DNA from: Thuidium tamariscinum
Taxonomy: Eukaryota > Streptophyta > Bryopsida > Hypnales > Thuidiaceae
DNA: 64,000 nucleotides
Direction: 5' to 3'
NCBI GenBank assembly: GCA_947034885.2
Contig: OX344750.2
Span: 9,458,553-9,522,552 of the forward strand
Shown here piece by piece: positions 675-63,306 of this stretch. Below the pieces are notes generated by a model, which was not told where the DNA came from, searched no databases, and was given only the letters and a program-made list of their open reading frames with translations. The first letter of the stretch is position 1; the number at the start of each line of letters is the position of its first letter. A program made the position numbers and the translations under genes.

Positions 675-3600
675 ATCTTCTTCAAATTTTATTTTCTTAC
701 CCTTAATTAGACAACTTTTAGATCCTAGTTCTTTTATTTTCATACTTGGAGATATTTTCAAAAAAAATTGTATATGTTTGAAGTTGTTTGAACAAAAAGT
801 GAAGTGTGCTTTATCTTTCTATTTGACTTTGAAGGATTAGAACTCCATGCAAAGAAAAATGAAATTCTTTGAGAATTCTCATCTTGTCCTTCTGCAATTC
901 CAAAAATCTATCACTCATTCCATTTGGAGTTTGTATGTGAAAGTTATGCTTGATGGAGTGATGTCAGATTTGGAAGAGATAAGTGAGAAAAATGGTGGAA
1001 AAAAACAAACATTTTTGTAAATATTATTTACATTGATGGATAGTATAAACAAATCAAGGTTACATAGAAGTTTGATATGTGAAGGACTAAAGGTCAACAA
1101 CAAACATTTCTACAATTAATTGAAAATGTCTAAACCAATAGTAGGAAGAGGTATAAATCTAACTGGACAAAGGGCAATACTAAAGCAAGGGCCAAAGAGG
1201 TCCTACCTATGTAAAGACAAAGATGAAAGAGAAATTAGTAGAAAAAAATAAGAGTAGTAGGTAGGAGTAGTAGGTAGAAGCCTAAGTTTATAGAGTTAAA
1301 AGCTATAGGGTTAAAAAAAAAGATGGGGAGAGCCATGGATTTGTATATAAGAATGGAAAATTAGCACCATGCGCTCAAGAGGAAGAGCAATATGGTTAGC
1401 AATGAAGACTATAACCGCATCTATTCCACACTTGCAAATGACAAATTGAAGAGGTGTTAAAACTTTGCATTGAATTGGCAATGCTTTCAAAGAATTGTAG
1501 AAGGAATAGTAGGAATAGTAAAAGAATTTTGAAATCAAATTGGATATCTAAATCCTAGTGTGAAGTTTTTTGAAAGAGAACTAATAGGCTTGCTATAAGA
1601 TAATTCAAATTGGTAACCACAATCCAAAGACAAGTGTAATTTCTTCTAATTTGTCATTGTTATACTTCACTATTTGGTCTAATTACACAATTTGGTACCC
1701 CTAATGGCCACAAGAATTGAAAATCTCCCAAATTAATCCTCTTCATTATTTTAACTTTACTCCAATTGAATTTCTACTCTCAATTCTTTATCCTTCACTT
1801 TTCTTTTTACTTCAATTTTATCCAATTTAGTCTTTGCTTAGATCTCTTGTTCTATCTTCCAAAATCAAACAAATATTTTCTTGATGCTTATAGAAGCAAA
1901 AGCCAAGACAATTGGAATACAAACTTAATAACTTCCCTAATAAAGACTTAATACAACCATTGCAAATACAACTTGAATATATACCTTAATTGTGAAAATA
2001 TCAAAATCTAGATTTGATCTCAAGTAAATTTTGACTTTGACAAAAATGGATACGTTCATTGAGCTTCTAATTAGTAATTTTTAGACCACACCACCAGTGA
2101 TCCTAGAACTAGTTTATAGAATTTAGTGTAATATGCTACCTAGTTTCAGGGATTTAGTGCAATTTGCTACCTTCAAGATAAATAAGCATCAACTTTGGCT
2201 ATCTTGAGAGAAAATGGCATTAAAAAATTTAGAAAAGAAAGGATTTTGCAAGTTGTAAAGGACAATAGGGGGAACTAATACCCATAACTAACTACAGAGA
2301 TGCTAATTCCAATGTAGAGTAAGTAACAAATTGGCTATCAAATTCTATTGGTTGTTGAAATCTTAGCTAAAATTTAATTTTTTCAAGGATTTTTTTTATA
2401 GAGATTTAGCTACTGAAAATTTTTAGTAGCAATGGAACAAAATTTAGCCAGTTTTGTGAACGCTGTACACTACATGTTCTTATTTGGTTTTATACTATAA
2501 ATGACATAATGAAATTTCCAATCATACAATCAAAAAATTTTGAAACTTTTCTTTTAACTATAAGGACAAATATTATTATCCAATTTATTCATCATTTAAT
2601 TTTAGGTAGAGTTAACATCCAATTTAATTTGAAAAAAAATCAAACACAAATAGAAGCATTGAATACTTACCAATTTGAATCTTAAGCACTCAAATTAGAG
2701 ATTCACATTGGAGCATATATGAAACTAAATAGATACCAACTTGGTATACACACACACACACACACTATATATATATAATATATACAATACAATATATATA
2801 TTCAAATTCAATATAAATTCAATTCAATATAAGCAATTATGTAATAAATTCCCACTGAACATCAACATTACTACATGTACTTGATAACAATTCCAACTTG
2901 ACTACACAACATTCCAACACATAACACATGTGCAAACAAAATTCAAAATCATATATTGACAATGAATTGGAATTCAAATCCTATAACTTGATAGACATTT
3001 GATAAAATGCACATTCAAATTATCATAGACAACAATTCACACAATTAGGCAATCACACATAACCAATACACACCCGAAATCTACACAAGAGCTTCATCAT
3101 ATCAACCAAAATAAAAATTACATAACCATTGAGGGTCAAGATGCTCATGCTCATACTATGCAATGAATGAAAAATAACTAGATAGAGAAGGCTCTAGATT
3201 GGCCACAATAAATGACAAATATGAGTAACCAACTTCGCTTATAGTCACTAATGCCTATTTAGATAACTTCTATCCTTTCTATTACATTTAATACCAAATC
3301 AGCAAAGTAATTAGCCCAACTAGGAAAAAAAATTTGAAAATAAAAGCTTTAAAAGGCAAATAACGGATTTATAGGTGTGATGGTGCTCCATCAATCAAAG
3401 ACAACAAGAGTATTAGGTAAAGTTAATTTTTGAACATGAAAAATGCTCCAATAATGTAGGAAGTAAGTAATAGACAATCCTAGATTCTACTCCATTGACA
3501 TTTCCAACTTCTATGCAAAGCAATTGTTGGAGCATTGCAACAAAGGTACCTTAGTGAACTCCAACAGTGATAATAAGGATAGTCCTTGTAGGTACTAGTG

Positions 3601-6600
3601 TAGCAAGTCTTGCAAATGAAGAGTAAAAGTGATCAAGTGGAATAATATGATGTTGTAGAGGCAAACATATTGATCACGATATGATTGCTAACCATTTAAG
3701 TACAAGAACTAGTAGTGGAAGAAAGAAAAGTAGAAGGAGGATCTATATGGCTTATGCCATATAAGATAGCAACGTAATTTTGAAGAAAGCGCAAACGATC
3801 CAAAGTAAGAAAAGTAGTGGTGGGAGGGGACTACAAGTTTGGAAAGTAAAAAAAATTTAAGTGGGGAGCCCTACAATCTTGCCACAAACAACAAACAATT
3901 CAATCATGTCACACAAGCAAGATAAAGCTATTGCATTTAAAATATAATATGTGGTAGCTAGTTCCCTAGAATTGCTAGCGACAATCATAAAAATAGTAGG
4001 AAATTGTAATAGATTCATTTACATTCACTCTAAGCCCTACTTATGCCTAATTTAAGAATAGGAGAGACCTCAAAGAATGTCTTTTGGTATTGATATAATG
4101 TAGCAAGTGGTACCAAACTCTAATGCTTGTAATAGCTAGAGTGCATCATCAATTTAGGCAATTGGTATTACTTCTCTAGTTACTTTTTGAATTGCAATAA
4201 TTCTAGCTAAGGCTTTTAATAGAAATTGACTTCACATCAAGTAATCAAATTATGTGGGCTCTAAAAATGTTTTGAAATGGCATATTCATTCTTTATGGAC
4301 TCTTTTTCTATTAGATTAGTTGTTGAATTTTAGAGTTGCCTACCACGTTACATCAACCATTCCATATAAAATGGGCTATTTTACTTTAATTCTTAGATGC
4401 AAATTTGTTTCAATAGTTAATGGTTCTACTTGTTGTGCGAAGGACCTTGAAGATCAATGAATATAACATTAATTGTAACAACACTAGTAACATGTCCTTG
4501 CAATATTTTCTAATTGATAAATCTCCAATGGTTTGTGGTCAAGTGTAGAGATGCTTTGTCATTTAGGATTGATGAATAATTGTACACATCACACATGGAG
4601 AGGTTTAGACCTACTTCTAGGTAAAAATATAAATGTAATTTCTAAAATTAGATGTTGTATCCAATTATCTACTTCTAAAATGATAACCTTCATTATGCAC
4701 ATGTGTTTTAAGTTTGTTTCCTTTACATGAGTACACTTTCTGTTTTAGTTTTTTTCTCTTGAGAAGTAGTTGATGGATTAGAAATCACTTTGAGTTGGAA
4801 AGAATGACCAAGTTCTATTTGTTCATTTTAATTCTAGAAGCCCATGACATTTCTATTAGATTTCTATTTGGTACAAAATCAATATATAGGTGATTGCAAG
4901 AAACTTGTGTGTTCTTTGTTGCATCAAATTTTTAGTGAATGGTTTTGAATCTTTTTTAAAGATGATTCAAAGATTTGATTATATTTGATTTGTTTATCAA
5001 AATTGAAATTCTAATATATTTCAACAAAATATTCTTTAAAATACATAATCTTCATTTGGATACAAGTAAAAATCAACCCCTAATCATAATTTTGAGTCTT
5101 TTTTATAATCATCAATATAGATGAACAATTTTAGATAATGCCACCTTTTGTAACCAACTTCACCTACTCAAGTTATGGTGGTTTGTACTTTGTACATCAC
5201 ATTACAAATAGACAAGTAATTACATTGAAAAATTCAACATCAATAGTGCATTTAAACATCCTCACAAGATATTGAGTTTGAATCAATACCTATTTAATTT
5301 AGTATCTCAAATTTATAGGTGCCATAAAAGGGAGGTTGGTTTTATAGTGAGAAATTTAGACAAGCTATGAGCAAAGGCTTCATTAGTGAGCCTACTAAAA
5401 TCTCTTTGGGGGGTCTAAAAAAATGTCTTCGAATCCTTAAAGCCCTAAAGCATGATTTCAAGTCATTTTCTACTTTAATTTAAGCAAGCCACCTTCTTAC
5501 TACAATATTTGTTGGATTCTTGTGAAAATTTTAACTAGAGGATTGAAGTGTATTTTCTACTTACATGATGCCTAAAAAACTTTAGACCAATCCAAGTGGT
5601 GTTTAAAAGTTTTACCTCTAAGGCTCTAAATGATGTTTCATTTGAATTATGGACAACTTTGGATAGCCAAAAGAGGTAGTTATAGGCAATTTTATGCAAC
5701 CATGATAGATAGGTCCACTTAGGCTGAAATTTTTTACACCTTCTTATTAACAACAAGCTTATTAACACAATCCAAGTTTTGAAAGGCATACAAGCACATG
5801 GTTTTGACTTACAAGCCTTTGAAATTAAATTCTTCTTCTTTAAGTAATGTTCAAAACTTACAAAGGCCAATTTCAAAGTCTTGTAAATCAAAACTAGTGC
5901 TTTTATGCCTTTCAAATTTTGGAGTGAGGTCAACATGCATGCTTGTTGAGAGTATGTAAAAAAAAAATTCAACCCAAGTGGATCCAATGATGCTAGCATG
6001 TGGGCACAAAGACATGAGCTTATGAGCCTTGAATTTAGATGTAGGCATGCACCTACAACCATTTGAAGGTGTTTATATATAACATATGGATGGGTAATCA
6101 AACTTTACCATAATATGGAAAGAGTCTATATGACTATTATGTAGGTACCAATATTATAGACACCTATAACTATAAAAAGTGTCTATAATATAGACTTTTA
6201 GACTTATAGGCTCATATATTCTATGCTCACATACTACTACTCCTTCAAGTGAACCTATCTTTTATGGTTGCATGAAATTGCTTGTTATTCAAAATAGTGT
6301 CCTTTTGAGGCAATTTTTTTTACCACCATTTGGATTGGTTTAAAGTATTCTAGGCATCAAGCCAATAGTGCAATCCTCTAGTGAAAACTTCACAAGAAAG
6401 CAACAAATATTGCACTAAAAAAGCTTTCCCCAAATTGAAAATGGGCTTCAAATTTGGCTTGAGGACTTTGACAATTAGAAGCATATCAATTTTATTGTAT
6501 GGAGTATTACCATGCTACAAGACCCTAGTAGACAAAATGGAGTTTTGAAATACTTCTATAGAATAGCTTGATTCATGAGTGTATAGAAATGAAAAGTCAT

Positions 6601-19814: not shown

Positions 19815-20190
19815 CTACAGTGGAAACACCCAAAACCGTGCAAATAAGGAATTCAGCATAGTTGGAGGCAGTGTTTTCTAAAAATGACATTTTTCTAGTA
19901 TTAGCGAGTGAAAATCATGAATATTCAAATAAATAAATAAATAAATTCCGATACAGTATGTAATTTCTACAAATTTTCAAAGTGTTGGCTCTCTAAACTT
20001 GTGAAACCGTCCAGTAGGTGCCCCAAAAACTGAACCCTGCGAAAATCAACACTCAGCTAACTAGATTCTCCTCTATGTCAACTAATTATAATTACACATG
20101 TGGCAAACACATTAAAGAAAGTCTATTGACACAATTGGGTGAATCTATGGTCCATTCCAAGGAACATGCACAGGAATGGGTGTTTTGCCG
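19815..20190. mobile_element. MITE-like element, family M3, copy 1
   Basis: Starts AGTGGAAACACCCAAAACC and ends with the inverted counterpart GGAATGGGTGTTTTGCC. It is similar along its full length, in inverted orientation, to 33,525-33,910 (shared words include ATTCAGCATAGTTGGAGG, CTAGTATTA, AAAATCATGAATATTC, CTGAACCCTGC and CACTCAGC). No coding capacity. The second copy disrupts another element, which supports transposition. Confidence 0.7.
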
Positions 20191-20211
20191 TTAGGTTTGG
20201 GCCGGTAGTTA

Positions 20212-20556: not shown

Positions 20557-20557
20557 T

Positions 20558-20834
20558 TAAGGTAGGTACACTCCAAATGGCACTTGATCTTAAAGCGCCA
20601 TCTACACTATGCATACATTTCCAAAATCAGTCATGTATTCAGATTGTAGATGGCCATTTCAAAAACAGACTTTGACTGTTAATAACTTTTGCATATGGTA
20701 TCCAAATCCTATGTTCTTTGGTGCATTGGAACATGTTTTCACTCACCAACAAGACTGTATAAACATCTGGACAACATGATGACAGGAACTAGGCACAGTA
20801 AGAATAAGTGGCCATTTTAAGTGTACCCACCTTA
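20558..20834. mobile_element. MITE-like element, family M4, copy 1
   Basis: Left end TAAGGTAGGTACACTCCAAA and right end AAGTGTACCCACCTTA are inverted repeats. Contains CATTTGGAACA-like and GTAGATGGC words. A related element lies inverted at 32,329-32,590. Its right end overlaps the TTAA that begins the next element. Confidence 0.65.
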
Positions 20835-21760
20835 ACCCCTAAAGGACCAAGGCCTTTTTTATGTCAAAAACCTCTCAAAACTGCCATTTTTGTTGCATTC
20901 ATCCAAGAAAACAAAAAATATTTTTTTTAAGAATCTAACCATAGGATCTTGTACTTAACTTGATTGAGATCAAGTGGTAAAAATTTCATGAAGTTTGAGC
21001 ATACAGATTGGAAGATATGAGCATTCAAAGTTGGAAATACAAGTTTTTTTGAACTATGGTTTGCAATTTCAGATGACTTTGACTAGAATTTGTATTAAAA
21101 AATTGCACTATGGACTTTGAATTTATAATTTTTTGTGTTAAGAAATTGAGTTGAGAGTCTAGGAAAAAAATTTCACACAAAAAACACTTGATTTTCATTC
21201 TTTAAAAAATTGTTAAGTAGATGTAGGTCCAAGATTGAAAGAAAAACTAAATGGTTAATAACTCTAAGATGGGATTGAAATACAATAATCCCAATGGTGA
21301 GATTGTTCTAGAAAGTAAACATAACCTTTTCCAACAATTTTTTTTGAAAAATTGTGAAAATTGCATTCAAAAATGAATCCTATAAGTTATTTTTTCAAGA
21401 AATTGTTTAGATTGCCCGAAAAACAAGATTGTCCATAACTTTCTCACTATAAGTCCAAATAGAGTGAATCAAAGCTTCACATGTAGGCAAAAATATATTA
21501 TTTTAGAAAAAAAATTAAAAAATTAAATTTTGACTTTTTGCAAAAAAAAATTTCTGCCCGCCGAATGAAAATTTAGGCTTTTTGTGGTATAACTTTTGCT
21601 CCCGGTCGCCAATTGAAATAAAAATTACATTCCCATGAACCTAATCAGTTTTCCTATCTTATGAGAAATTTTTGAAAATATTCATTAAAAATTGAGGTCT
21701 ACGGAACCTACCCGAACTCCAAATTGTCCCCCAAGGGGACAATGGTCCTTTAGGGGTTAA
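20832..21760 (+). mobile_element. TTAA-bounded element T, full-length copy 1
   Basis: 929 bp from TTAA to TTAA. The inverted ends TTAACCCCTAAAGGACCA and TGGTCCTTTAGGGGTTAA match perfectly over 18 bp including the TTAA. The inside is AT-rich with no transposase frame, so it is non-autonomous. A related element lies at 30,901-31,836 (opposite orientation) and an interrupted copy at 32,938-34,010. TTAA target sites and short ends rich in CCC are characteristic of the piggyBac superfamily; that assignment is inference from structure alone. Confidence 0.75.
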
Positions 21761-21996
21761 GTGAAAAATGAAGCCCCTTCTGCAATTTATTTTGTTTACG
21801 CCTTCTGTTGGTCTTCTTTTGGGTCTTTTGGTTTCCTCCACCCTTCGCCATTGTCCAGTTCTCAAGCTTGGCTGTTTTGTATGTGTGTCTTTTTTTTATA
21901 ATGCGGTGGGTTCTCCCAATTTGATTAAAAATTAATTAATTTTAAATTTAAATTTAAAAAAAGAAAAGAAAATGAAAAGAGCAAGAAGCCGTGTGT

Positions 21997-22535
21997 CCAA
22001 TTTCTGGACAATATACAGATTGAAAATCAGATTCTCATTACAACTTGGATGAAATCCTAATTTTTAGAGATTCTTTATGAAGTTATGGTCCTATTCAAGG
22101 GTTGTTATTAGAGTACATATTTTTCTAAGATTATACTACATAAATGTCGAAGTATGTTAAGTGGTTGACTAAGCCAATATTACATTGATTCTACTTCAAA
22201 CTTGGAATTGCAAAAATGAGGTCATAGAATCAAAGAACACAAAAATTCCCAAAAATCACCATATCAAAAGAACCTCATTTCAAATTCATTTCAACAAAAT
22301 TTACTCAAATAATGACAATAGTTTACATATATTGAATTTTGAAGGGATTTTAAATTTTCACTTTCAAAATTTATAGAAAAATATTAGTGAATCCAACCAT
22401 ATTGATAGAATCTAAAATTAAAACTCTACAACTTTAATTTGTTTCTCAATTTCAAAATATTCTTCTAGGTAGTACTTTATGATGATTTTTCCAAAATCGG
22501 AGATGAGTTTGGACACTTAGGAGTTAAATTGGATA
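21997..22535 (-). repeat. Dispersed repeat R4, inverted copy
   Basis: Shares long similarity in reverse with 24,640-25,223 and 62,495-62,900: words such as TCAAACTTGGAATTGCAAAAA, the AACAAAATTTACT run and the CATATCAAAAGAACCTCATT block. It ends near a GGACACTTAGGAGTTAA sequence, like the TTAA-type ends seen elsewhere. Non-coding. Confidence 0.55.
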
Positions 22536-22599: not shown

Positions 22600-23060
22600 T
22601 TTGTACATAGAAAGCTTTAATTCATTCCATTTTGATTAACTCCTAAATGTCTAAACTATGTCTTTTGGCAACAAATAAATTTTGACCAACTCACCACAAA
22701 TGGAGTGTTGTTGTTTTTCTTCAAAAATTCACACATGTGCCCAAGCAGTAGCTAATTTTCATACCTAATGATTGCATGGTTAAAAAGCTATTGCAAGATA
22801 TGTGATTTGTCATTGCTTAGAGGGCAGCCCACACAACTCAAAAAACTTCTTGAAAATTTACTGTTTTACAAAATAAAAATTTTAAATTGATCCTTTAGAT
22901 TTACAGATACATGGGAAGCTTTGAATCATACCATTGTGATTATATATTGAGATGAAAGTTATGAGAATTTTGGGTTTGCAAGTAGGTATGGAGTCTTTAT
23001 AGACAATTTTGTTATTTCGAATAGATCACTTCAAAAATTCATAAAAATTAAAATTTTAAT
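22600..23060 (+). repeat. Repeat related to the inside of element T
   Basis: The stretch with CAAGCAGTAGCTAATTTTCA, TGCATGGTTAAAAAGCTAT and GAGGGCAGCCCACAC matches 31,000-31,130 inside TTAA element copy 2 (GAGGAGTAGCTTTAAGG, ACATGGTTAAAAAGTTATGG, GGTGGGCAGTCCG). It is a fragment or relative of that element. Confidence 0.5.
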
Positions 23061-23979: not shown

Positions 23980-24377
23980 AGAGCATCCCCACGGCCACTC
24001 AAAATTCGGCGCAAACTGGGTAAATAGCCGGGCCCGGTCGAAGAAATTGCCCCATGGCACACTCGGCAAAGCCAAAAATAAGGCCTGCCCGGCCAAATTT
24101 GAGAATGGCATGGCCAAGTGCTGGGTGTGTGGCCGGGTTCGGTGTTCAATTATTTTAGATTTCATTCCTGTATTCGAGGTACTTTTGGAGTTTAGAAGAA
24201 TTGATTCTCGACGTCAACCATGAGGTGGCACCTCGAAGTCCGAAATAACTTGCTTCCCCGCCTCGTTGGCCGTATTGGGGTGGGGTAAATTTTTTTAGCC
24301 GGGCCTAGGCTTCCTTAATGGCTCAGCAAGTGGTCCCTAGCCGAGCCATTTGCTCGAGCCAGGAGTGGGGATGCTCT
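23980..24377. mobile_element. MITE-like element with AGAGCATCCCCAC ends
   Basis: 398 bp with terminal AGAGCATCCCCAC and its complement GTGGGGATGCTCT. The core is GC-rich (CCGGGCC, GGCCGGG blocks) and has no gene; open frames on both strands are compositional. GAGCATCCCCA-type ends are common in plant genomes among non-autonomous elements, so the type is familiar even though the superfamily is not shown here. Confidence 0.7.
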
Positions 24378-24639
24378 AACAAGCAATCCAAACGGGGAGT
24401 TCAACTTTTTCTGTAGAAATTGGCTCCGCTGAGGAAACTCATCCTCACTCTTGGAGAACCAAGTTTCTAATTTATGTCATCTTTGTTTTTATTAACAACC
24501 CTAGAAGGACGAAGAAGACCTCTGTGATCAAATAGTATATTGTGAATTTAGTGGTATTTGATTATCATTGACCAAATACTTTTTAATAGAGAATAAATTA
24601 GTGATCATGGTAGTACCTAAATAACAATGTATCATGATT

Positions 24640-25223
24640 CATATATTAACCATGAAGTATTGAGACTCATCTCCAAAATTGATGATTTCAACAAAATCTT
24701 TACAAAGATCTATTTGGAAGCATATGTTGGTTTTGAGATGCAAATAAAAGTTGTAGAGTTTGAGTTTTAGATTCTATCCATACGGTTAGATTTGCCAATG
24801 TTGTCACCAATATTTTTCTATGAATTCTAAAAGGGAAAATACAAAATTTGTTCTAAATTCGATTACAAGCAAAATATTGTCATTTTTTGAGTAAATTTTG
24901 TTGAAAAGTATTTGAAATGAAGTTATCTTGATATGGTCATTTTTTTGGAATTTTTATGTTCTTTGATTCTATGCCCACATTTTTGCAATTCCAAGTTTGA
25001 ACTAGAGTCAACCCAAGTCAACTACTTGACATACTTCCACATTTGTAATTTTAGAAAAATAAGTGCTCTAGTAATACCAAATCCAACTATTAAATAGGAC
25101 CACAACTTCATAAAATATCTTTAAAAATAAGGATGACTTTCATCTAAGCTATAATGAAAAAGAGATCTAAATTTTAATTAGTACATCATCCAAAAATTGG
25201 ATGTCAGAGTGCTCTAGGGTTAA
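24640..25223 (+). repeat. Dispersed repeat R4, copy ending in TTAA
   Basis: Similar to 62,495-62,900 and, inverted, to 21,997-22,535. The right end reads GTCAGAGTGCTCTAGGGTTAA, close to GTCAGAACGCTTCAGGGTTAA at 63,286-63,306 and GTCGGAGCACTTCAGGGTTAA at 39,670-39,690. These are probably ends of a second group of TTAA-bounded elements. A further TTAA end (GGTCTTTTAAGGGTTAA) lies at about 25,277-25,293. Confidence 0.55.
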
Positions 25224-25293
25224 ATCGTAATCAAAGAGTTATATGGTTAAATGCAAATCATGTAGAGGGACCCCAACGGTCTTTTAAGGGTTA

Positions 25294-28250
25294 ATACCTT
25301 TTATTGTGGAAGTAATTCATATTGTTGTGGAATGAGTAGGCCTTGGACCTAAAAATACAAGAATTATAGTTCTTCAATAGAAGAGATGTTCATGGGTGCA
25401 AAATTATTGTACAAGCAAACATTGTTATCAACGACCATAATTTTGAACATCACTTGCAATTGAGGGACACTTATTGCAAAGATAATCTTTGAAATATTCA
25501 GAATTCAACATTAATCTATTAAGAATCTAATGAATGATTTTCATGGTATTCATAAATTTGTAGAAATAAAGAATGCACCTATTCATTGTAGAATTTGATC
25601 ATTTTGTATTGATTTCCTTGATGATAGGGTTGGATCCTTCTAAAGTTAATTATAAAGTGCCTTCAGATGGAGGATCAATTGTATGTAATCAAAAAATAAT
25701 TATTACACACAAACACATTCATCTTTTTTTTGCGTTGTTTGATGATTCAAGTTATTCAATAGAGTAAATTTAGGATCCTCATGAACCTACACAACTCCAA
25801 AAAATATCATCACAACCAATTATAGTGACATCTCAAAAATTAATTAAATTGATTCAATTTGCAAAATGAAACCAAAATGTCCTAATAGAAGCACGGTTTT
25901 AACATCCAAAATCCTTGGCGACAAAGAGCAAAAAAATTGAAACTTCTTGGGGGCAAAAGGATGTAAATGTTAACAAAATCAACAAATATAAAATAAATAA
26001 AAAGTCACAACTTAGGATATATTGTCTCATAAGTGAAAAGAAGTCAAGGTCAAAGTTGAATTCATTTGAATATTTTTTTTCCACAACATTTAAAAAAAAT
26101 AGAATTTATTATTTATTATATAAACTATTATTCTAGATAGATTGTTCTATAATTGATAAATTCACTTTAATACACTATTTTTTAAGAATCTTATCATTTA
26201 GTCTTTACAAGATTAAACAAAGTCAGATTTTAGTCATAGTACATGATTAGAAAGAGCATATTTTTCAATTATTATAATCTTAATCTTAAGCAACCTTGAA
26301 AACTCTCTCTTCTAAAGGTCTCTAACACCAATTAGAAAATTGAAAAGATATTAAAATTTTTAAGTATATATTGTTGTTGTACATGTCAAAATGGAAATGC
26401 ACTTAGAGAATATTAGACAAACTCTAATATATATAAAAATAAGGGAATGTCTATATGATGAATCATAAGAAATTAATGGTATTGTATTCTAGATTTTCAT
26501 AATAAATATCACATGAAATAATTGAATGATATCACTCTAGAATATGACTATGATGGATATTGTGATAGGAGTTGTAAGAAGGGTTGTGACACTTTGAACT
26601 TAATACAATAGATGTAATATATATCTAGACACACACAAGTCTTAGATTCCAATTTCTTCATTCAAAGTGTAGTGTTTTTTTGTTTTTTTCTAATTTGCAT
26701 TTCCAACAATTTTCAAGAAAAAAAATAGAATCCAATATTTTAGGCTAACAAAGCATTTGATGAAGCACCACCTTTGACCACTCATTCAAAGTTGAGGCAC
26801 TAGTAATCGATCATTCAAGTAATTTTAAAGTAGATTCTATGCATGATGAGGTGGTGGAAATTTTTCCCATGAAGAAAGATAGTGAATATGGAGATTCTAA
26901 TATTTTCAAAATTATTACTCCAAAAATTGTAATAATTGTGAATTTGGGGAGCCAAAAGTACTTTCGATCAATAGCCAATGTCTAGGGTCTTCTAATTTTG
27001 ATCATTCAAGAATTACTATCCTTCTCACTACTTCCTACTCTTTCACTTATAGATTCAAGACATGTGTCATAACCATATTAGTCTCAACCTTGAAAAGAAC
27101 TTAGTTTCGATTTTGACATTAATTTGTTGCATACCAAACCTTGTTACTTTTGACATTGTTGTTCATTTGGCTGAAGGAAGACACAAATAAGTTACAAGGG
27201 TTGCTATTTTGTAAACTTAGAAGTGTGAGCCTATGAACCTGAAAAAATACAACATTTGGAATCACTCATTTGCTTTTTGTTCATTCATTTTCAAATTATG
27301 GCACCTAGAATGAAACTAAACAAAATATAAACACAAACTTAAGAATTACAATATATCCTTGCCACATCCTTTAGTCACTACAGATATTTCGATTGATGAA
27401 TTGATTTTTTAACTCATTATCCACCAAAAACACATTATTAGAGTTCGAAAGCAAAACATACAACTTCTCATTGTTGCTCCTCAGAGGAATATTCATGTCC
27501 TTCACATTTCTCTGGTACTTTTGTGAACTATATGCACAATTGCAATGGTAATCTAAAACCCATTTCAGCTCCAATTTAACTTCCTGTACTATTTTATAAC
27601 TTCCAAGAACACCCAACCCAATTCCACCCTTTTCAGCTCCAATTTAACTTCCTGTACTACACAAGGATGCAATGAGTGTGAAATTGGGCCCCAACAGTAG
27701 GATGCCATTTGGGGTATATTTTCTTTACCATTCATAGCTCCAGCCCAAAGAACAGGGTGAAAAAAATGCACATTCCCACTCAAATAGGCGAACAGCAACG
27801 CTACAAAAATGCACCATGAGCTAAGAATGCAAGATGTTTGCAACTTGCACAAAGAAATCATTTGCATGCTTCTGAAAACACATTTTCAAATCATCGAACC
27901 TGAAAGGGTTCGCAAGCAATAGTTTCCGCAAACCCATCACCAAGTCCTATACAATCAGATTTCCAAATGACGTTGACATCAAGATGGTGTATTTGAAACC
28001 AACGCACTTCCAGGCTCTTGCAAATCCATCACACTGATGCCATCTAACCGTTCGACCAATGTTGCTCAACAGTTGTCAAGAAAATTCATTTGTCATCCAG
28101 CCCTGAACCCCGCTGGCATCCTCTCAATCCTTCCATTGACGATGCACATCTGTGTCGTAAGATCAAGCTCTGTACAAAATTTCTAGGTGAAGTAACCTAG
28201 AGGCGCTGATCAACAACAAAGATAAGCAATGAGAAGAATACTCTACCCCT
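25294..28250. other. AT-rich intergenic DNA
   Basis: No supported gene. A 29-bp word, TTTCAGCTCCAATTTAACTT and onwards, occurs twice 68 bp apart (from 27,563 and 27,631). Minus-strand open frames at 27,371-27,867 have a hydrophobic segment but no family match or convincing splice sites, so they are not called. 27,900-28,250 may include the 3' untranslated part of the dUTPase gene. Confidence 0.45.
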
Positions 28251-30900: not shown

Positions 30901-31836
30901 TTAACTCCTAAAGGACCAAACTGTATTTTTTGACAACATAGCAATTTCGGGAAGCTTACTATGAATGGAGTTTGTTTGTTTTTTCTTAGAAATTTTCACA
31001 ACATGTGCCCGAGGAGTAGCTTTAAGGCCCAACAATTTTCATAGCTTTTGATTACATGGTTAAAAAGTTATGGCATGATATGTCACTTTCTTTGCTCGGT
31101 GGGCAGTCCGGGCAAAAAAAACATTTTAAAAATGATTTTCTTAAGTTTTTTTTTTGAAATTGGTTTATTAGATTTTTATCTAAGTGGAAAGCTTTGAATC
31201 TTTTCATTTCAATCAATGAGTCAAAAGTTATGAGAGTTTTAGTTTGGGATACCTTGTGGCTAGTTATAGAATCTCTACACTACAAAAAAAAAGTTTGGAA
31301 TCCTTTATTTAATGTAGTTTTTAATATTTTTGAAAAAAAATAGGTAGGTATAGATTTTTTATTACAACATTTTAACTATTGGAATTGGCATTTTTCAATT
31401 CCATAAATTAATTGTTTGTAATTTTGTATTTTAGCTCATTTTCTACTTTTTTCTACTCACTATTTTTTTCTATATGTTGTACAATTCCAAATGATTTGAA
31501 ATTTTTTGAGCATCTAGACAACTTGCCTTTAAGTATGAATTCAAAGAGTTGAAATCAATTAGAACTTTTTTTCTTACAAATGTGACCTTTTGAAGTGAAG
31601 CTGCCTGAATTTTCATAGTGGTAAAAAAAGGCTTTTTGTAGCTTCAAACACTAAAACCTTGCAACCTACATGGCGGAAAATTCTGAAATTTTTTCCTCAT
31701 CCTTTTATAGAATCTTACTACAAGATCTAACAGTTATATGTGTCAAAAAAAAATTCTAAATTTTGGTACATGTATTAGAAATGGCAGTTTTAGAGTGGTT
31801 TTAGTGAAAACATAGTCATGGTCCTTTAGGGGCTAA
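30901..31836 (-). mobile_element. TTAA-bounded element T, copy 2
   Basis: 936 bp with ends TTAACTCCTAAAGGACCA and TGGTCCTTTAGGGGCTAA; the right TTAA has mutated to CTAA. The right half, read in reverse, resembles the start of copy 1 (ACTCTAAAACTGCCATTT, AGATCTTGTA). The left half resembles 22,600-23,060. No coding capacity. A mosaic of the family. Confidence 0.65.
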
Positions 31837-31915: not shown

Positions 31916-32144
31916 ACACTAGAAGAAATCCCTGTTAATTTCAGAGCAGCATGTCAGGTAGATTGTGTTGAGGCCGCGTTGCTGAAAACGCGGAAAAAAC
32001 ACAAAAAAACACAAAAAAACGCATTTTCTGTGTTTTTCTGCGTTCTTAAGGTTTTCCTGCGTTTTCAGCAACGCAGTCTCAACACAATCTACCTGACGTA
32101 CTACGTTGAAATTAATAGGGATTTCAGTGTTTTTCTTCTAGTGT
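31916..32144. mobile_element. Palindromic foldback element with ACACTAGAAGAAA ends
   Basis: The two halves are near-perfect complements. ACACTAGAAGAAA and CTGTTAATTTC at the left mirror the right end; the block GTCAGGTAGATTGTGTTGAG, then GCGTTGCTGAAAACGC, mirrors GCGTTTTCAGCAACGC and CTCAACACAATCTACCTGA. The loop holds ACAAAAAA repeats. The whole unit could fold into one long stem, as foldback MITEs and small-RNA precursors do. Ends starting CACTA recall the CACTA superfamily, but no 3-bp target duplication is visible. Confidence 0.7.
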
Positions 32145-32590: not shown

Positions 32591-32937
32591 TTCTCTGCCA
32601 GGCCTTAAGAAAATAAATAATATTTTTTTCCCTCTAAAATGATCAGGTTTTTTCCTAAAATTTTGAACTTGATTTAAAAATTCTAAATTTCAACCAGCTA
32701 CATTGTACCTACATGCTAGTACTCCTTGTCATTGATTGAGACATTTACAGTTAAGTAATTTGAAGTTAAGTGTACAAGCTTTAAGACATAGAATGACATA
32801 GAATTTTTGTTTATACTTTGACGTTCTACATTTCTTTACAAATCTATGAAAACTTCAAATTTTTTAAGCCTTTTTGGTATATGACATACAAATTCAAAGA
32901 ACTTGCAATTAAATCATTAAGGATCATTTAAGGTCCT

Positions 32938-34010
32938 TTCTTTTCTGGCCAAAAAACACTCAAAATTGCCATATCTATTGCCAAGAGTAAAAAATTTGAA
33001 AATTATTATTTTTGAACACCTAATTTTAGGACATTACACTTAACTAGCATGAGAATGTGCAGGATAAATTTCAGAAATTTTGACTGTAGAGATTGCAAGA
33101 TATCTATGTTTAAAATAAAGAAAACCATTTTTTTTGGTACATTGCTGAAGTAGATTATTTGACTCTTTCAACCTTCTTAACTTAGATTTTTTGCACTAGT
33201 GAGTTGTGAGCTTAAAATCTTTACAGTGGGAAATTGATTTGAAAGTCTAGGGAAAAAAATGATTTAAGAAAAAAAATTGTTAAGTAGAAATAGATTCAAG
33301 ATATAAGGAAAATCTAAATTATTAATATCTCTAAAATGGAATTAAAAGACAATAATCCTAATAGTGAGATTGTTCAAGCAAGCAAAATAAACCATGTGAA
33401 ACTTTCTTTCTTTTTTAAATTGTAAAAATTGCATTTAGAAATGAATCGTGCAAGTTATTTTTTGGAGAAGATGCTTGATTACTTGGACTGCCCAAAAAAC
33501 AAGATGGTCTATAACTGTCATATAAGGGAGAAACACCCATTCCCGTCCATGTATTTTGCAGTGGACTGTAGAATCACTCAAATATGTCCCTTTTAGTGCA
33601 GTTAATGTATTTGCCACATAAGTGATTGTAATTTTCTAACACAATTGAGGGACATATAAGAAAATCTAGTTGGCTGAGTGCTGATTTTTGCAGGGTTCAG
33701 TTTTGGGTGCACCTATTGCACACTTTTAGTGGTCTAGGGAGCCATCACTTCAAAAAAACATAGAAATTACATACAATGTCCAAAAATTCTATTTCTTTTT
33801 TTGAATATTCATGATTTTCACTCGTTAATACTAGAAAAATATCAATTTTACAAAAATCTCCCTCCAACTATGCTGAATTTTTTATTTGGACGTTTTGGTG
33901 CTTCCACCGTAATGTACTCAAATGAAATGAATCAAAGCTTTCCATGTAGACAAAAATATAATCTATTAGAAAAAGCATTTTCAGCTTACACCAACCAGAA
34001 AAATTGAGTA
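32938..34010 (+). mobile_element. TTAA-type element T, copy 3, interrupted
   Basis: Follows copy 1 (20,850-21,480) closely: ACACTCAAAATTGCCAT, TTGTTAAGTAGAAATAGATTC and CAATAATCCTAATAGTGAGA blocks. Similarity stops at about 33,520, where an M3 element is inserted, and resumes at about 33,915 (GAATCAAAGCTTTCCATGT). The left end is degenerate (TTAAGGTCCTTTC) and the right end is not recognisable, so this is an old copy. The right limit given is approximate. Confidence 0.55.
33525..33910. mobile_element. MITE-like element, family M3, copy 2, nested in element T
   Basis: Inverted relative to 19,815-20,190. Its ends GGGAGAAACACCCATTCCCG and the complement of TTGGTGCTTCCACC are related inverted repeats. 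It sits exactly where similarity between T copies 1 and 3 is broken, so it inserted after copy 3. Non-coding. Confidence 0.65.
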
Positions 34011-38294: not shown

Positions 38295-41200
38295 ATGGCA
38301 AAACATTGGAGACTACTATTGTTCTTGAGCTTGTTGCAAGCAATGACCATGTGCAGCTTCTCTGATAAGATTTATGATGGTAAGTTGAAACTTCATAATG
38401 CCAAGTTCAATGCCCTACTTTAATGTACTTATCATACACTTCAAAATTCACACAAACACAGCTATCAATTTAATTTGTTTACATAAAAATATACAAACCC
38501 CATATATCCTATTAATCCATTAAGGACCAGGTCGATGATTGCATACGAACATCTAGCTAGAAATGACATGTTTTCATCAGCAGCTGAAGTAACTACTAAC
38601 AAAAACCTATCATTTTCATCCAAGTCATCAACTAATCATCAACCTGGTCCTTAGTGGGTTAAGTTTAAAATTCAACAATTGAATTTGCTTACTATGAATC
38701 GTTTGTTTACATGTGAATCAGACCCAAATTATTCATTTGTGCGAAACGCAACGGAAGCCCTACTTCATGGTTTCAAAGCATATGATTACATCATTGTGGG
38801 AGGAGGAACTACAGGAATTCCATTGGCAACAACTCTCTCCCAAAATTTCTCGGTCCTACTCTTGGAACGAGGAGGCTCCCCATATGGGGATCCTCTCGTG
38901 GAAAATCTCGAAGGCTTCTACCCCAACTTGCAAATTGATACGCCCACTTCAACATCACAATCCTTTGTTTCGGAGGACGGAGTGCCCAACAACCGAGCTC
39001 ACGTCCTTGGTGGTGGGAGTGCCATTAATGCGGGTTTTTTTACAAAGCCCGAATATGAATTCGTCAAGAAAGCTGGTTGGAATCCAACTCTGGTGAATTC
39101 TTCTTTCAATTGGGTTGCAAATAAAGTGGCTCAATTTCCAAACTTGCAAGTTTTCCAAGTGAGTTTCTTTTCTCTTGAAACTTATTTACCATGACATTTG
39201 AGTTATTTGTAAAGTACACTAAACCGGGGCTTAAGCCCATGAGTTTTGTGAAAAAGCCAGTTGAGTTAAAAAAATGTCGAAATAAAAGTGGGTATGAAAC
39301 TTATTTTTCCATCAAAATGGTGCTTAATAAAGTTTGGGCTCCACTTTTGAAGTCGTGTGACATAAGTATCTTGCAAAAAAGTTTGACGCTTCAACTATAG
39401 TTGATTCTCAACTTCAAGAAAAGTCATGCCCAAAGTAGGGGGGACTTTACAAATAATTCAATTAACCTTGAAACGCCTCAATCCTTTTTTGAATTTTCGG
39501 GCATTTTCGCTTATATCTTTGTATAGATATATCATTTACCAAAATTTAATGAAATTGGTCATTACGAAAGGTTGTCTTTTCTAGATTCAAGTGTTACATT
39601 TGATAAATGAGAAGTTGATTGGATGAAATAGTACCTTAAAGCCCTATGTTCTTTGTCTAGAATATGGACGTCGGAGCACTTCAGGGTTAATCAATTGATA
39701 GCAAGTGTTTGCCAACGAGGTTTATGTAGATAAAGACAGTTTATTCACTAATGTGGAGAGTAAAATTTGGGAGAGAGAGTTTTTGCAATTATTTAAAAAG
39801 GCTTTTTTTTATTGCACATATTGGTTTTGAGACACTGTTTGAACATGTGATTCTAGTTCAATTATTTTCTCTAAATGACTGGTTTTTTGAATTTTTAGCA
39901 TATGACAATTGTAGAATATTTTTATTTTTATTATTTTAAAAAAAGGCCATTTACCTTGTTGTATAATTTGATGTATTATCAATTTTAGTGAGTTTCTTTT
40001 TACTGATTTTGAGGTTAATTTTGACAATGAGATCATTGATTTTTTTTACAACCATAGATTTGGTAGTAAGTTTTATAGTAGTTTCAAGTATTAATGTATT
40101 TTTCTTTCTCTTATGTTGATTTTGACATATTAGATGGCAGCAAGAGATGCATTGTTGGAAGCTGGTGTTACCCCAAATAATGGTATGACATATAAACATT
40201 TGATTGGCACCAAGGTTGGTGGATCATTGTTTGATGAAAATGGTCACCGTCACTCTGCAGCTGACCTTCTCTCGTATGCCAATCCAAGCAACCTTGATGT
40301 CTTTATTTGGGCTACTGTCCAAAATATTATCTTCAATGGTAAGTTGTAAAACTTTACCAATCACTTCCTTATGATTCTTTTAATTATTTACAAGTACAGG
40401 AATATCTTACTTATTTTACTAGTCATGCTTTATAGGCTACGTAATAGCAAAGGTTATTTGTAGGTTATAAATAACGATTGCAAATAAAGACCTGCCAAGC
40501 TGAGTTTGGATTATTCTTCATGACCTATCTACTTTTGCCATTATCTAGTATAATTTCAATTTAAAAAAGTGTGAGTTGATTGATCTCCTTGAACTCTCAA
40601 TATATTAACATAAAACACTATAAGTTGGAGCAACTAGTTTGTTACATTTATCTAGTATTGCAATAGTCTTTGTATTGTTAATGCCATTGTGCACATATCA
40701 ACTATTAAGGTTCATTGTCAAAACTTAGGATTTATCAATAGTGATTGACTCTCCTTTGCCAAATACAATTTGCCATGACATTGGAACTTGTCATCATTGA
40801 GATTTGTTGAACAAATACTACATGACTAATCACATTGTCTATCAATGCATCATAGGATCAACATTACATCCAAATTGTAAGGCAATAGGTGTGTTATTCA
40901 AAGATTTGAATGGTAATAGCCATTCAATGTTCTTGAATAATGAAAGGAGCGAGGTAATTCTTTCAGCAGGGGCAATCGGTAGCCCTCAATTACTCATGTT
41001 GAGTGGAATTGGACCTAAAGATCACCTTATTCAATTCAACATTACTACCATTTATGATAATCCATTTGTGGGCAACCACATGGCAGACAACCCTACCAAC
41101 TCTTTATCAGTGCTTACTAATGAAGAAGTAGAAGTATCATTGATCGAGGTGGTAGGCATCACCAAATTTGGTAGCTACATTGAGATTGCTAGTGGCATAG

Positions 41201-42416
41201 CCCAGGTAAATGGTCATACCTGTTCAACCTTTTTCTTTCAAAATTTTTCTTTAGATTAGAAGAATATCCTAGTACTACAAGGTGACATTTTTGACTTAAT
41301 TTAGATGCAATTTCATTGAAATTGGATTATATTTCATATAAATTTAGATTAGTTGATTTGGATTTAATCTTAGACTCAATGCAAAGTCATCACCTAGGAT
41401 GGGTGGTTTATTTTTGATGTTAGATCTTAATTCAATTATTTACATTTGTATTAATATTAGTCTTTTGTATAATTTTTAAGCAAGAGGCTCAATTGTCTAA
41501 ATCCAAATTCTTGACAACAATGTATAGGTATTGCTAAAAGTTGCCCAAGAAACAAATAAGAATGTTGAAAAAAATTCCAAGCTAAGCATAAGCCATTCGA
41601 ATGCACAAATTATGCAAGAAAAAATTCTTTTTGCTATTCTCTCTGTTCCACCTCAGTTTCAAGCAGAAGCAGCATGGAGCGGCAATATTTTGCACAAGAT
41701 ATGGGGGCCTCATTCTCGGGGATACTTAAAGCTCAATAGCTTGGATGTAAATGAGACTCCAAAAGTGCAATTTAACTACTTCAAAGACCCATATGACTTG
41801 GTCACATGTGAAAAAGGCATCCGCACAATTTTAAACACCATCAATGCAACATCTCTTTTGTCTTTGCAATACACAAATGACTCTATTCCAGAACATTTGC
41901 GCCTTATTAAAGACACGATTGAAAGTACATGGCCACAAAGAGACTTTGGAAACACTACTCAAGACTCAATTAATATTCAACAATGGTGTAAGGATAGTGT
42001 GCAAACAATATGGCATTACCATGGTGGATGTTTGGTTGGACTTGTTGTTAATCAAGATTATCGAGTCTTAGGAGTGGAATCCCTTCGAGTCATCGATGGA
42101 TCTACATTTTGGCGTTCACCTGGTACTAATCCACAAGCAACATTAATGATGTTGGGAAGGTATGGATCCCCCTAATACCACACTTCCAATCTTATTTATT
42201 GTTGGTCATGAATATTATCTAATGTACACACTACAACAAAGCATCAATTCCCTTGATTTCCACCTTTCTATTTCAAATTCCATCGCATATAACATGTTTT
42301 CTTAAGTATTTGAAGTCATAAATGATTAAGTTTCATATACTCATAATTTTCTTGGCTATTACTATGGCAGGTACATGGTGTGCAAATTCTCAAAGAAAGA
42401 CTTGGTTACAAAATAA
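38295..42416 (+). CDS. HOTHEAD-like GMC family FAD oxidoreductase, slipped last exon
   Basis: GMC (glucose-methanol-choline) family flavoenzyme of the plant HOTHEAD / mandelonitrile-lyase-like group, which includes enzymes of cuticle omega-hydroxy acid oxidation and hydroxynitrile lyases. Six exons: 38295-38379, 38722-39158, 40134-40338, 40856-41205, 41528-42159 and 42371-42416 (1,755 nt, 584 residues, close to HOTHEAD). Exon 1 is a signal peptide ([17 protein letters not shown]), so the protein is likely secreted. Visible: the FAD-binding GGGTTG at 55-60, LLLERGG at about 74-80, the GGGSAIN block, the active-site WHYHGG at 521-526 and GTNPQAT at 558-564. The last exon seems to have lost one base after ATG: the frame encodes [14 protein letters not shown] instead of a family-like tail. 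Two TTAA-bounded elements lie in introns 1 and 2. Substrate not predictable. Confidence 0.9.
38512..38662. mobile_element. 151-bp TTAA-bounded element in GMC intron 1
   Basis: TTAATCCATTAAGGACCAGGT at the left is mirrored by ACCTGGTCCTTAGTGGGTTAA at the right, both ending in TTAA. The centre (CATTTTCATCC, AGCAGCTGAAG) does not code. Same TTAA and GGACC design as element T but much shorter. It lies wholly inside intron 1 and leaves the splice sites intact. Confidence 0.65.
39462..39690. mobile_element. 229-bp TTAA-bounded element in GMC intron 2
   Basis: Left end TTAACCTTGAAACGCCTCAA; right end GTCGGAGCACTTCAGGGTTAA, an imperfect inverted match. The right end matches those at 25,223 and 63,306, so it belongs to the second TTAA group. 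It lies inside the roughly 1-kb intron between exons 2 and 3. Confidence 0.6.
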
Positions 42417-53488: not shown

Positions 53489-53543
53489 ATTAATGGTAGC
53501 ATTTGTGACATTAGAGAGGGAGTTATGATTTTAGTAGTATAAT

Positions 53544-53760
53544 AATATTAGTTTTGCTTGCTCTAGACTTGACTTTTCTATTTAAATATTTTGTCGAGAT
53601 TGTTTTGTCCTTATGTAGAATCAATTATGTCAAGAAAAGAAAGGTTAGTTTAAGATAATATTAGTTTTGCTTGCTCTAGACTTGACTTTGTTATTTAAAT
53701 ATTTTGTCGAGATTGTTTTGTCCTTATGTAGAACCAATTATGTCAAGAAAAGAAAGGGAC
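53544..53760 (+). repeat. Two-copy 113-bp tandem repeat
   Basis: AATATTAGTTTTGCTTGCTC and the following hundred bases occur at 53,544 and again at 53,657 with very few differences (for example CTTTTCTATT against CTTTGTTATT), so the duplication is recent. Non-coding. Confidence 0.8.
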
Positions 53761-62494: not shown

Positions 62495-63306
62495 AAATAG
62501 ACAATGTTTCTTGCAATGACTCTACAGTTAGATTTACCAACGCTATGACCAATGTTTTTCTATAAATTTGAAAGAGGAACTCAAAACTCCTTCTAAATTC
62601 AATTGCAAGCAAAATATTGTCATTTTTAAAGTAAATTTTGTTGAAATGGTAAGGATTTGAAATGAGGTTCTCTTGACATGGTGTTTTTGGGGAATTTTTC
62701 TGATCTTTAACTTGATGACCTTTGTTTTTTTTGCAATTCCAAGTTTGAACTAGAGTCATTACAATTTTTGCTAAATCAACCTCTTGACAAACTTCCACAT
62801 TTGTAATTTAAAAAAATATGTACTCTAGTAACACCAAATCTAACCCTTGGATAGAACAACATCATAAAGTATCTTTAAAAATCAAGATGATTTTCATCCA
62901 ATTTGTAATGAGGAAAAAATTTGATTTTCATTCTATAAGGTAGAAGGCTCTTAAATGAAGCGGGTTCTAAAATGGTGCCCTATCTTAAATGTACAGTACT
63001 TGTACATGTTACTTTTTCATAACCTTCAGCAGTGTACTGATAGTGTACATTTTAGCTAGGCACCATTTTAGAACCCTATGTCCTTTCAATTTCAAAATTT
63101 GATAACTAATTCAAAAAAGCTCAGAAAAATATGAAACGACTTGAGTTAAATGTCAATTCTACTTATCTTTCAAGGAAAATTTACTGAAAAATATTTCTAG
63201 AAGTTTTACCTCCCTGAAATTCTGATTCAGCCCTTAGATGGTCCATTATAGGACCTCTTACCTTACATCATCAAGAAATTGGACTGTCAGAACGCTTCAG
63301 GGTTAA
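62495..63306 (+). repeat. R4 copy with TTAA right end, carrying a nested hairpin element
   Basis: 62,500-62,900 follows 24,720-25,160 (shared TTAAAGTAAATTTTGTTGAA-like and CAAGTTTGAACTAGAGTCA blocks). The right end GGACTGTCAGAACGCTTCAG, then GGTTAA at 63,301-63,306, matches 25,203-25,223. Between them lies a 115-bp inverted-repeat element at 62,962-63,076. The left limit is uncertain. Confidence 0.5.
62962..63076. mobile_element. 115-bp foldback element
   Basis: GGGTTCTAAAATGGTGCC at the left is exactly mirrored by GGCACCATTTTAGAACCC at the right. Inside, AATGTACAGTAC and GTGTACATT also pair. It interrupts R4. Non-coding. Confidence 0.7.

Follow-up and report, generated by a model that had tools for sequence, protein, structure and literature searches.

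Comparison of the ends of a 929-bp element, A1, with transposase-bearing DNA elsewhere in the same genome makes it very probable that A1 belongs to the piggyBac superfamily as a non-autonomous element. Members of this superfamily insert at TTAA and have C-rich tips; they are known mainly from animals and are used as a laboratory tool. A1 lies in the window, by which we mean the whole stretch of 64,000 nucleotides analysed (C2:9458553-9522552), within a genome of 363 Mb in 19 contigs, and searches of that genome supported the piggyBac reading that a first-pass annotation of the window had put forward. The LEAFY domain PF01698, which to our knowledge is confined to plants, gave six matches in the genome (the best at 1.6e-27) and none in the 14 control genomes; these matches, together with the GMC oxidoreductase domains in the window, indicate a plant genome.

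A1 and related elements in the window

As the first-pass annotation had stated, A1 is bounded by TTAA and has perfect inverted ends: it reads TTAA, CCCCTAAAGGACCA, an interior, TGGTCCTTTAGGGG and TTAA, and its terminal inverted repeat (TIR) is perfect over 14 bp. The tips begin with 5'-CC, CCCCTAAAGGACCA being present at both ends, as in the TIRs of piggyBac elements, and the left end is the counterpart of the 3' end of a transposase-bearing relative described below. Nothing recognisable was encoded in A1, and tblastn with two of the genome's piggyBac transposases found no match in the window at E 0.001, in agreement with the earlier statement that a transposase is absent from it. The positions of A1 and of related elements are given in Table 1.

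Table 1. Positions of A1, its ends and other TTAA-type elements in the window
Feature	Position	Strand	Remarks
A1, probable non-autonomous piggyBac element	20832..21760	+	929 bp including both TTAA
A1 left TTAA	20832..20835	.	common to the end of adjoining element B
A1 right TTAA	21757..21760	.	
A1 left terminal inverted repeat CCCCTAAAGGACCA	20836..20849	+	
A1 right terminal inverted repeat CCCCTAAAGGACCA	21743..21756	-	
A2, element of a related subfamily	30901..31836	-	55% to A1; 75-77% to L028 and L017; right flank CTAA
A3, old A-type copy	32930..33974	+	insert at about 33523-33911; ends degenerate
A4, fragment related to A2 and L004	22542..22998	-	TIR-like start TTAACTCCTAAATGTCTAAACTATG at 22636
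Probable TTAA-bounded copy, another subfamily	24646..25294	+	end CCCTTAAAAGACCG; ends presumptive
151-bp TTAA-bounded element	38512..38662	.	ends TCCATTAAGGACCAGGT / CCCACTAAGGACCAGGT
229-bp TTAA-bounded element near a GMC gene	39462..39690	.	ends CCTTGAAACGCC / CCCTGAAGTGCT

The second copy named in the first-pass annotation, A2, proved to be real, but its right flank differs from TTAA; the 244 bp inward from its right end aligned at 66% with the 3' end of a locus, L067, that matches the transposase domain PF13843. For the old interrupted copy, A3, homology was found at 32930-33525 and 33919-33974 with an insert of about 390 bp between them, but the left end was degenerate, and a right end could not be recognised. 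The insert (33523-33911) is one of two copies of a repeat; the other, at 19816-20193, is inverted relative to it and 75.5% identical. The short relatives of 151 and 229 bp were present, but their placement in GMC introns was not established; GMC Pfam matches were found only in the two downstream ORFs (40801-41259 and 41528-42175), and the ORF at 38655-39194 gave no GMC Pfam match at E 0.001. The ends of the 229-bp element resemble the end CCCTGAAACGCC of a full-length family of 5,096 bp described below. A4 is additional to the copies named earlier, and the probable copy at 24646-25294 has an inverted relative (21996-22527); a third copy lies at approximately 62523-62937. A-type DNA, defined by homology to 14 library elements, made up 2,979 of the 64,000 bases.

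Several other repeats were seen. Element B (20557-20835), whose end supplies the TTAA where A1 sits, is a high-copy repeat with inverted ends AGGTAGGTACAC and with TA flanks in its other copies, looking like a MITE of the Tc1/mariner type; B has a TTAA-bounded look in the window, but in view of those TA flanks we left it out of the piggyBac set. The window also holds a fold-back repeat at 31925-32125, with 96-nt arms that are 81% complementary and 9 nt apart, an element at 23981-24378 with ends AGAGCATCCCCAC and GGGGATGCTCT that presumably resembles known plant MITEs, and, at 53542-53757, a 103-bp unit in tandem duplication (97% identical).

Within the window alone, the case from paired TTAA sites was modest. 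A scan for TTAA pairs no more than 4 kb apart, with ends matching at 12 or more of 14 positions and containing at least 5 G+C, found 2 pairs, and none in each of 20 first-order Markov resamplings; when 11 further palindromic tetramers were scanned in the same way, 2 pairs were found for AATT and 1 each for ATAT and TGCA. With the threshold lowered to 11 of 14, TTAA gave 4 pairs compared with 0-3 in the resamplings. Because AATT equalled the TTAA count, we regard this as a weak test.

Ends and insertion sites across the genome

The TTAA-end signal in the genome as a whole was very strong. Counted as exact matches only, the A1 end with its TTAA, TTAACCCCTAAAGGACCA, occurred 2,294 + 2,194 = 4,488 times (reversed control, 0) and CCCCTAAAGGACCA without the TTAA requirement 2,564 + 2,464 = 5,028 times (reversed control, 1). 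TTAA therefore directly preceded 89% of the exact CCCCTAAAGGACCA ends, which answers the earlier proposal that TTAA-flanked copies be collected from the whole genome. A wider core of the end, TTAACCCCTAAA, occurred 9,906 + 9,840 = 19,746 times, with 68 + 43 = 111 for its reversed control.

We collected 24 end pairs from the window and from fetched loci, aligned the 22 that were under 1.5 kb, and set aside two long ones. TTAA was present at 57 of 61 sampled ends, which is not an independent count because the loci were picked mostly for exact TTAA-bearing ends. The aligned copies formed several subfamilies with common ends, identities between subfamilies falling to 44-81%. Five of the other sampled copies were 95-97% identical to A1, and within the A1 cluster six of eight sampled copies lay 1.1-2.6% from the consensus, the other two lying at 7.8 and 9.3%. 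Loci L022 and L023 matched each other over more than 9 kb (99%), and L020 matched L022 over 3.2 kb (97%); as the flanks of these three are alike on both sides, we conclude that they spread by larger duplications and not by independent insertions. Two loci with TIR pairs at 7.2 and 6.9 kb (L025 and L026, respectively) were considered as full-length elements and rejected, as neither a closed ORF of 120 aa nor a transposase was found in them.

A1 itself gave no usable empty site because its left flank is repeat B: matches to that flank mostly ended at the shared TTAA, and, with the right part of B, 39 of 41 rows (best 40 of 3,763 candidates scored) were other copies of B, 88-95% identical. When the flanks of the A-type element at L007 were joined, 38 of 40 scored matches ran uninterrupted across the junction at 73-75% identity, and the other two were the element's own flanks; in three relatives of its host repeat that were read directly, the site was present once, diverged from TTAA.

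Transposases, full-length elements and their link to A1

The first-pass annotation had suggested a search for a PF13843 transposase with matching ends. The genome contained at least 116 PF13843 matches (116 scored of 659 first-look candidates, all over the cut-off; best E 5.7e-80); there were none in the 14 control genomes. Among the 116 matches listed, 74 had no in-frame stop and 42 had stops. The transposases at six fetched loci were 33-62% identical to one another. No convincing TIR pair was found within the fetched stretch at the first six PF13843 loci, because the elements extend beyond it, and the boundaries of a full-length family were set instead by comparing four near-identical copies.

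These four copies, at L029, L035, L036 and L037, have an identity of at least 99.9% along some 5 kb and occupy four different TTAA sites; they are four of the 11 listed matches with a frame of 1,023 aa, and L029 has an ATG-started ORF of 1,009 aa. A full-length member of the family measures 5,096 bp and has the ends CCCTGAAACGCCGG and CCCCTAAACGCCGG, both of which were present in L035 and L036; for L029 and L037 one end only lay inside the fetched stretch. The L036 copy abuts the TTAA end of an A2-type element that is itself complete (74% identity over 961 columns). At L029:51-1456 there are repeat units ending in GGTTAGAAGC, two neighbouring units being followed by piggyBac-type TTAA ends and a third running on without one. 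The flanks of the L035 copy had a 98% identical paralog without the element at C1:16425447, so the empty-site comparison proposed in the first-pass annotation could be made for a sister family of A1. Where L035 has TTAA-element-TTAA, the paralog, read directly in the letters, has GACTGGTGA-TGAA-CACCTAAAAATG, that is, a single four-base site, but one that reads TGAA. As the empty site is TGAA instead of TTAA, one substitution must be assumed; with that assumption, the insertion would have added the element and four bases. This site speaks to insertion rather than to excision.

A second full-length element was assembled from the adjoining loci L071 and L033 (C7:1354927-1360069; 5,143 bp), with TTAA-CCCCTAAATGCCC at its 5' end, in L071, and TTAA-CCCCTAAGTTCCC at its 3' end. 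Within L033 a single contiguous stretch contains both the transposase frame (756 aa from TTG, 1537-3807; PF13843 at 2e-79) and the TTAA end at 5067. In a PDB search, entry 6x67, which we take to be the piggyBac transposase of Trichoplusia ni, aligned with L033 at 8.8e-33. Counted along the alignment, D268, D346 and D447 of 6x67, presumably its catalytic residues, fall on aspartates in L033, the one transposase in which conservation was read residue by residue. In the PDB search the piggyBat entry 9c0f aligned with L030 at 2.4e-31 and with L033 at 1.9e-22. One scan of viral contigs with the L033 transposase core found no relative.

Both ends of A1 resembled the ends of the L071+L033 element. 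From TTAA inward, 252 bp of the 3' end aligned with the left end of A1 at 70% (E 1.5e-27), and 76 bp of the 5' end aligned with the right end of A1 at 75% (E 4e-8); this 5' end and the matching end of A1 both have a CCCCT-GGGGG-type palindrome close to the tip. Further matches to A1 came from an end at L069, 2.4 kb from another PF13843 match (300 bp, 72%, E 4e-38), which itself aligned with the L033 3' end over 539 bp at 72%, and from an end at L040 (121 bp, 70%, E 3e-6). Since both A1 ends match the L071+L033 element in the right order, we take both to be ends of a piggyBac element, and these terminal matches to a PF13843-bearing element argue that A1 is a non-autonomous piggyBac element.

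One element, then, shares both terminal regions of A1, but the exact end was not found: sequence 3' of the transposase was inspected for 33 of the 116 listed matches, additional L029-family copies not being counted again, and none of these 33 loci had an exact CCCCTAAAGGACCA end. The closest was CCCCTAAAGGCCC at L069, and the PF13843 match to which it would belong has two in-frame stops. A TTAA-CCC end lay 3' of the transposase at 28 of the 33 loci, L068 being doubtful, although at most loci this end may belong to an abutting short element; no such end was found for L030, L047/L061, L054, L056 and L066. At E 1e-5 the interior of A1 matched none of L033, L071 and L069, so A1 is not a plain internal deletion of those copies, and given the difference in G+C between a 5,096-bp element (L035:1289-6384; 51%) and an A-type element (L010:4244-5174; 30%), simple internal deletion of the 5,096-bp family does not appear to account for A-type elements either. 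The exact parent of A1 would carry CCCCTAAAGGACC at both ends with an intact PF13843 transposase between them.

Alternative explanations, known systems and significance

TTAA, whose duplication at both ends characterises piggyBac, preceded 4,488 of 5,028 ends and was present at four sites of one full-length family, and a paralogous empty site had a single 4-mer, TGAA. We propose that full-length elements elsewhere in the genome would supply a transposase which binds the A1 ends and cuts at the C-rich tips, and that the cut element would have inserted at TTAA, duplicating four bases. We infer that A1 may be mobilised in trans by the genome's PF13843 transposases, and that elements would be lost by seamless excision.

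TTAA contains TA, so one copy cannot separate a TA from a TTAA duplication, and as TTAA is a palindrome, duplication of TA inside an obligatory TTAA would yield the same sequence; with TA-flanked repeat B directly adjoining it, A1 might be read as a Tc1/mariner-type (Stowaway-like) element with ends ACCCC...GGGGT. We consider this highly improbable, since 89% of 5,028 ends retain the outer T and A, whereas roughly a third would be expected at a free outer base (an estimate for this A+T-rich genome), and the matching transposases are of the PF13843 type. The same conservation, with a four-base TTAA at both ends of A1, does not fit PIF/Harbinger, which makes a 3-bp TWA duplication. Sola3 elements also have TTAA as target but use a Sola-type transposase; the matching ends that were found sit at PF13843 loci. 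Non-autonomous elements of Kolobok type duplicate TTAA as well and are described from a chlorophyte and rhodophytes in the accessible part of PMC9587614, but the same part gives their termini as 5'-RR, in contrast to 5'-CC here, and the transposases with the terminal DNA of A1 are PF13843, leaving Kolobok scarcely credible.

A more serious question is whether the family, although genuinely derived from piggyBac, spread long ago and is now inert, some copies being passengers of larger duplications. The >9-kb stretch of L022 and L023, the 3.2-kb stretch of L020 and L022, the low identities between subfamilies and the stops in 42 of 116 transposase matches agree with such a history; the closeness of six of eight A1-cluster copies to their consensus, and of the four full-length copies at different sites to one another, one with an ATG-started frame, does not, and we think a fossil family unlikely. 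As to whether the piggyBac elements constitute a native, still mobile plant system, with several transposase lineages, near-identical copies and about twenty thousand movable ends, the balance is about even.

The elements resemble T. ni piggyBac in having a PF13843-type transposase with three aligned aspartates, and in their TTAA target and C-rich tips. They differ from it in their plant host, in transposase frames (756, 845 and 1,009 aa) that have a long N-terminal part ahead of the domain, and in length, two elements measuring 5,096 and 5,143 bp. PiggyBat was alignable but of low sequence identity, and the cysteine-rich tail of the plant proteins did not align with it significantly. The superfamily is already known and labelled in plants. 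Reviews, in the parts accessible, name piggyBac among plant elements without detail (PMC10813416, PMC10794571, PMC10004981), and the last includes PiggyBac among the seven MITE superfamilies that it names for angiosperms; in contrast to those MITEs, the assignment made here is based on terminal DNA that A1 has in common with a transposase-bearing element in its own genome, and near-identity is seen among some of the full-length copies. For the fern Ceratopteris, the part of PMC6890710 available gives 1,230 PiggyBac-labelled fragments totalling 122 kb (0.00%), compared with 19,746 exact TTAACCCCTAAA ends in 363 Mb here. Among the titles listed in searches of the open-access literature, none was on a native full-length piggyBac in a land plant, which is weak evidence of absence; in the parts accessible, the two 'piggybac' matches of PMC10619864 are the word piggybacking, and the word does not occur in PMC9985172 or PMC11704416. 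What is unexpected in a plant is that the elements are so abundant, that the transposases fall into so many lineages and that full-length copies are nearly identical.

PiggyBac has been brought into plants as a tool on account of its precise excision; a review of that use (PMC10905368) states, in the accessible part, that a footprint is left by every DNA transposon found in plants. If the elements described here are indeed a mobile native system, they would excise without a footprint, in contrast to the DNA transposons so far described from plants, and would provide plants with an endogenous means of delivering and removing genes precisely. The genome also offers transposases that are native to a plant. 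Its piggyBac genes, open and near-identical, and its roughly twenty thousand ends of piggyBac type make native seamless excision in plants directly testable, and there is a case for asking how piggyBac entered and expanded in this lineage.
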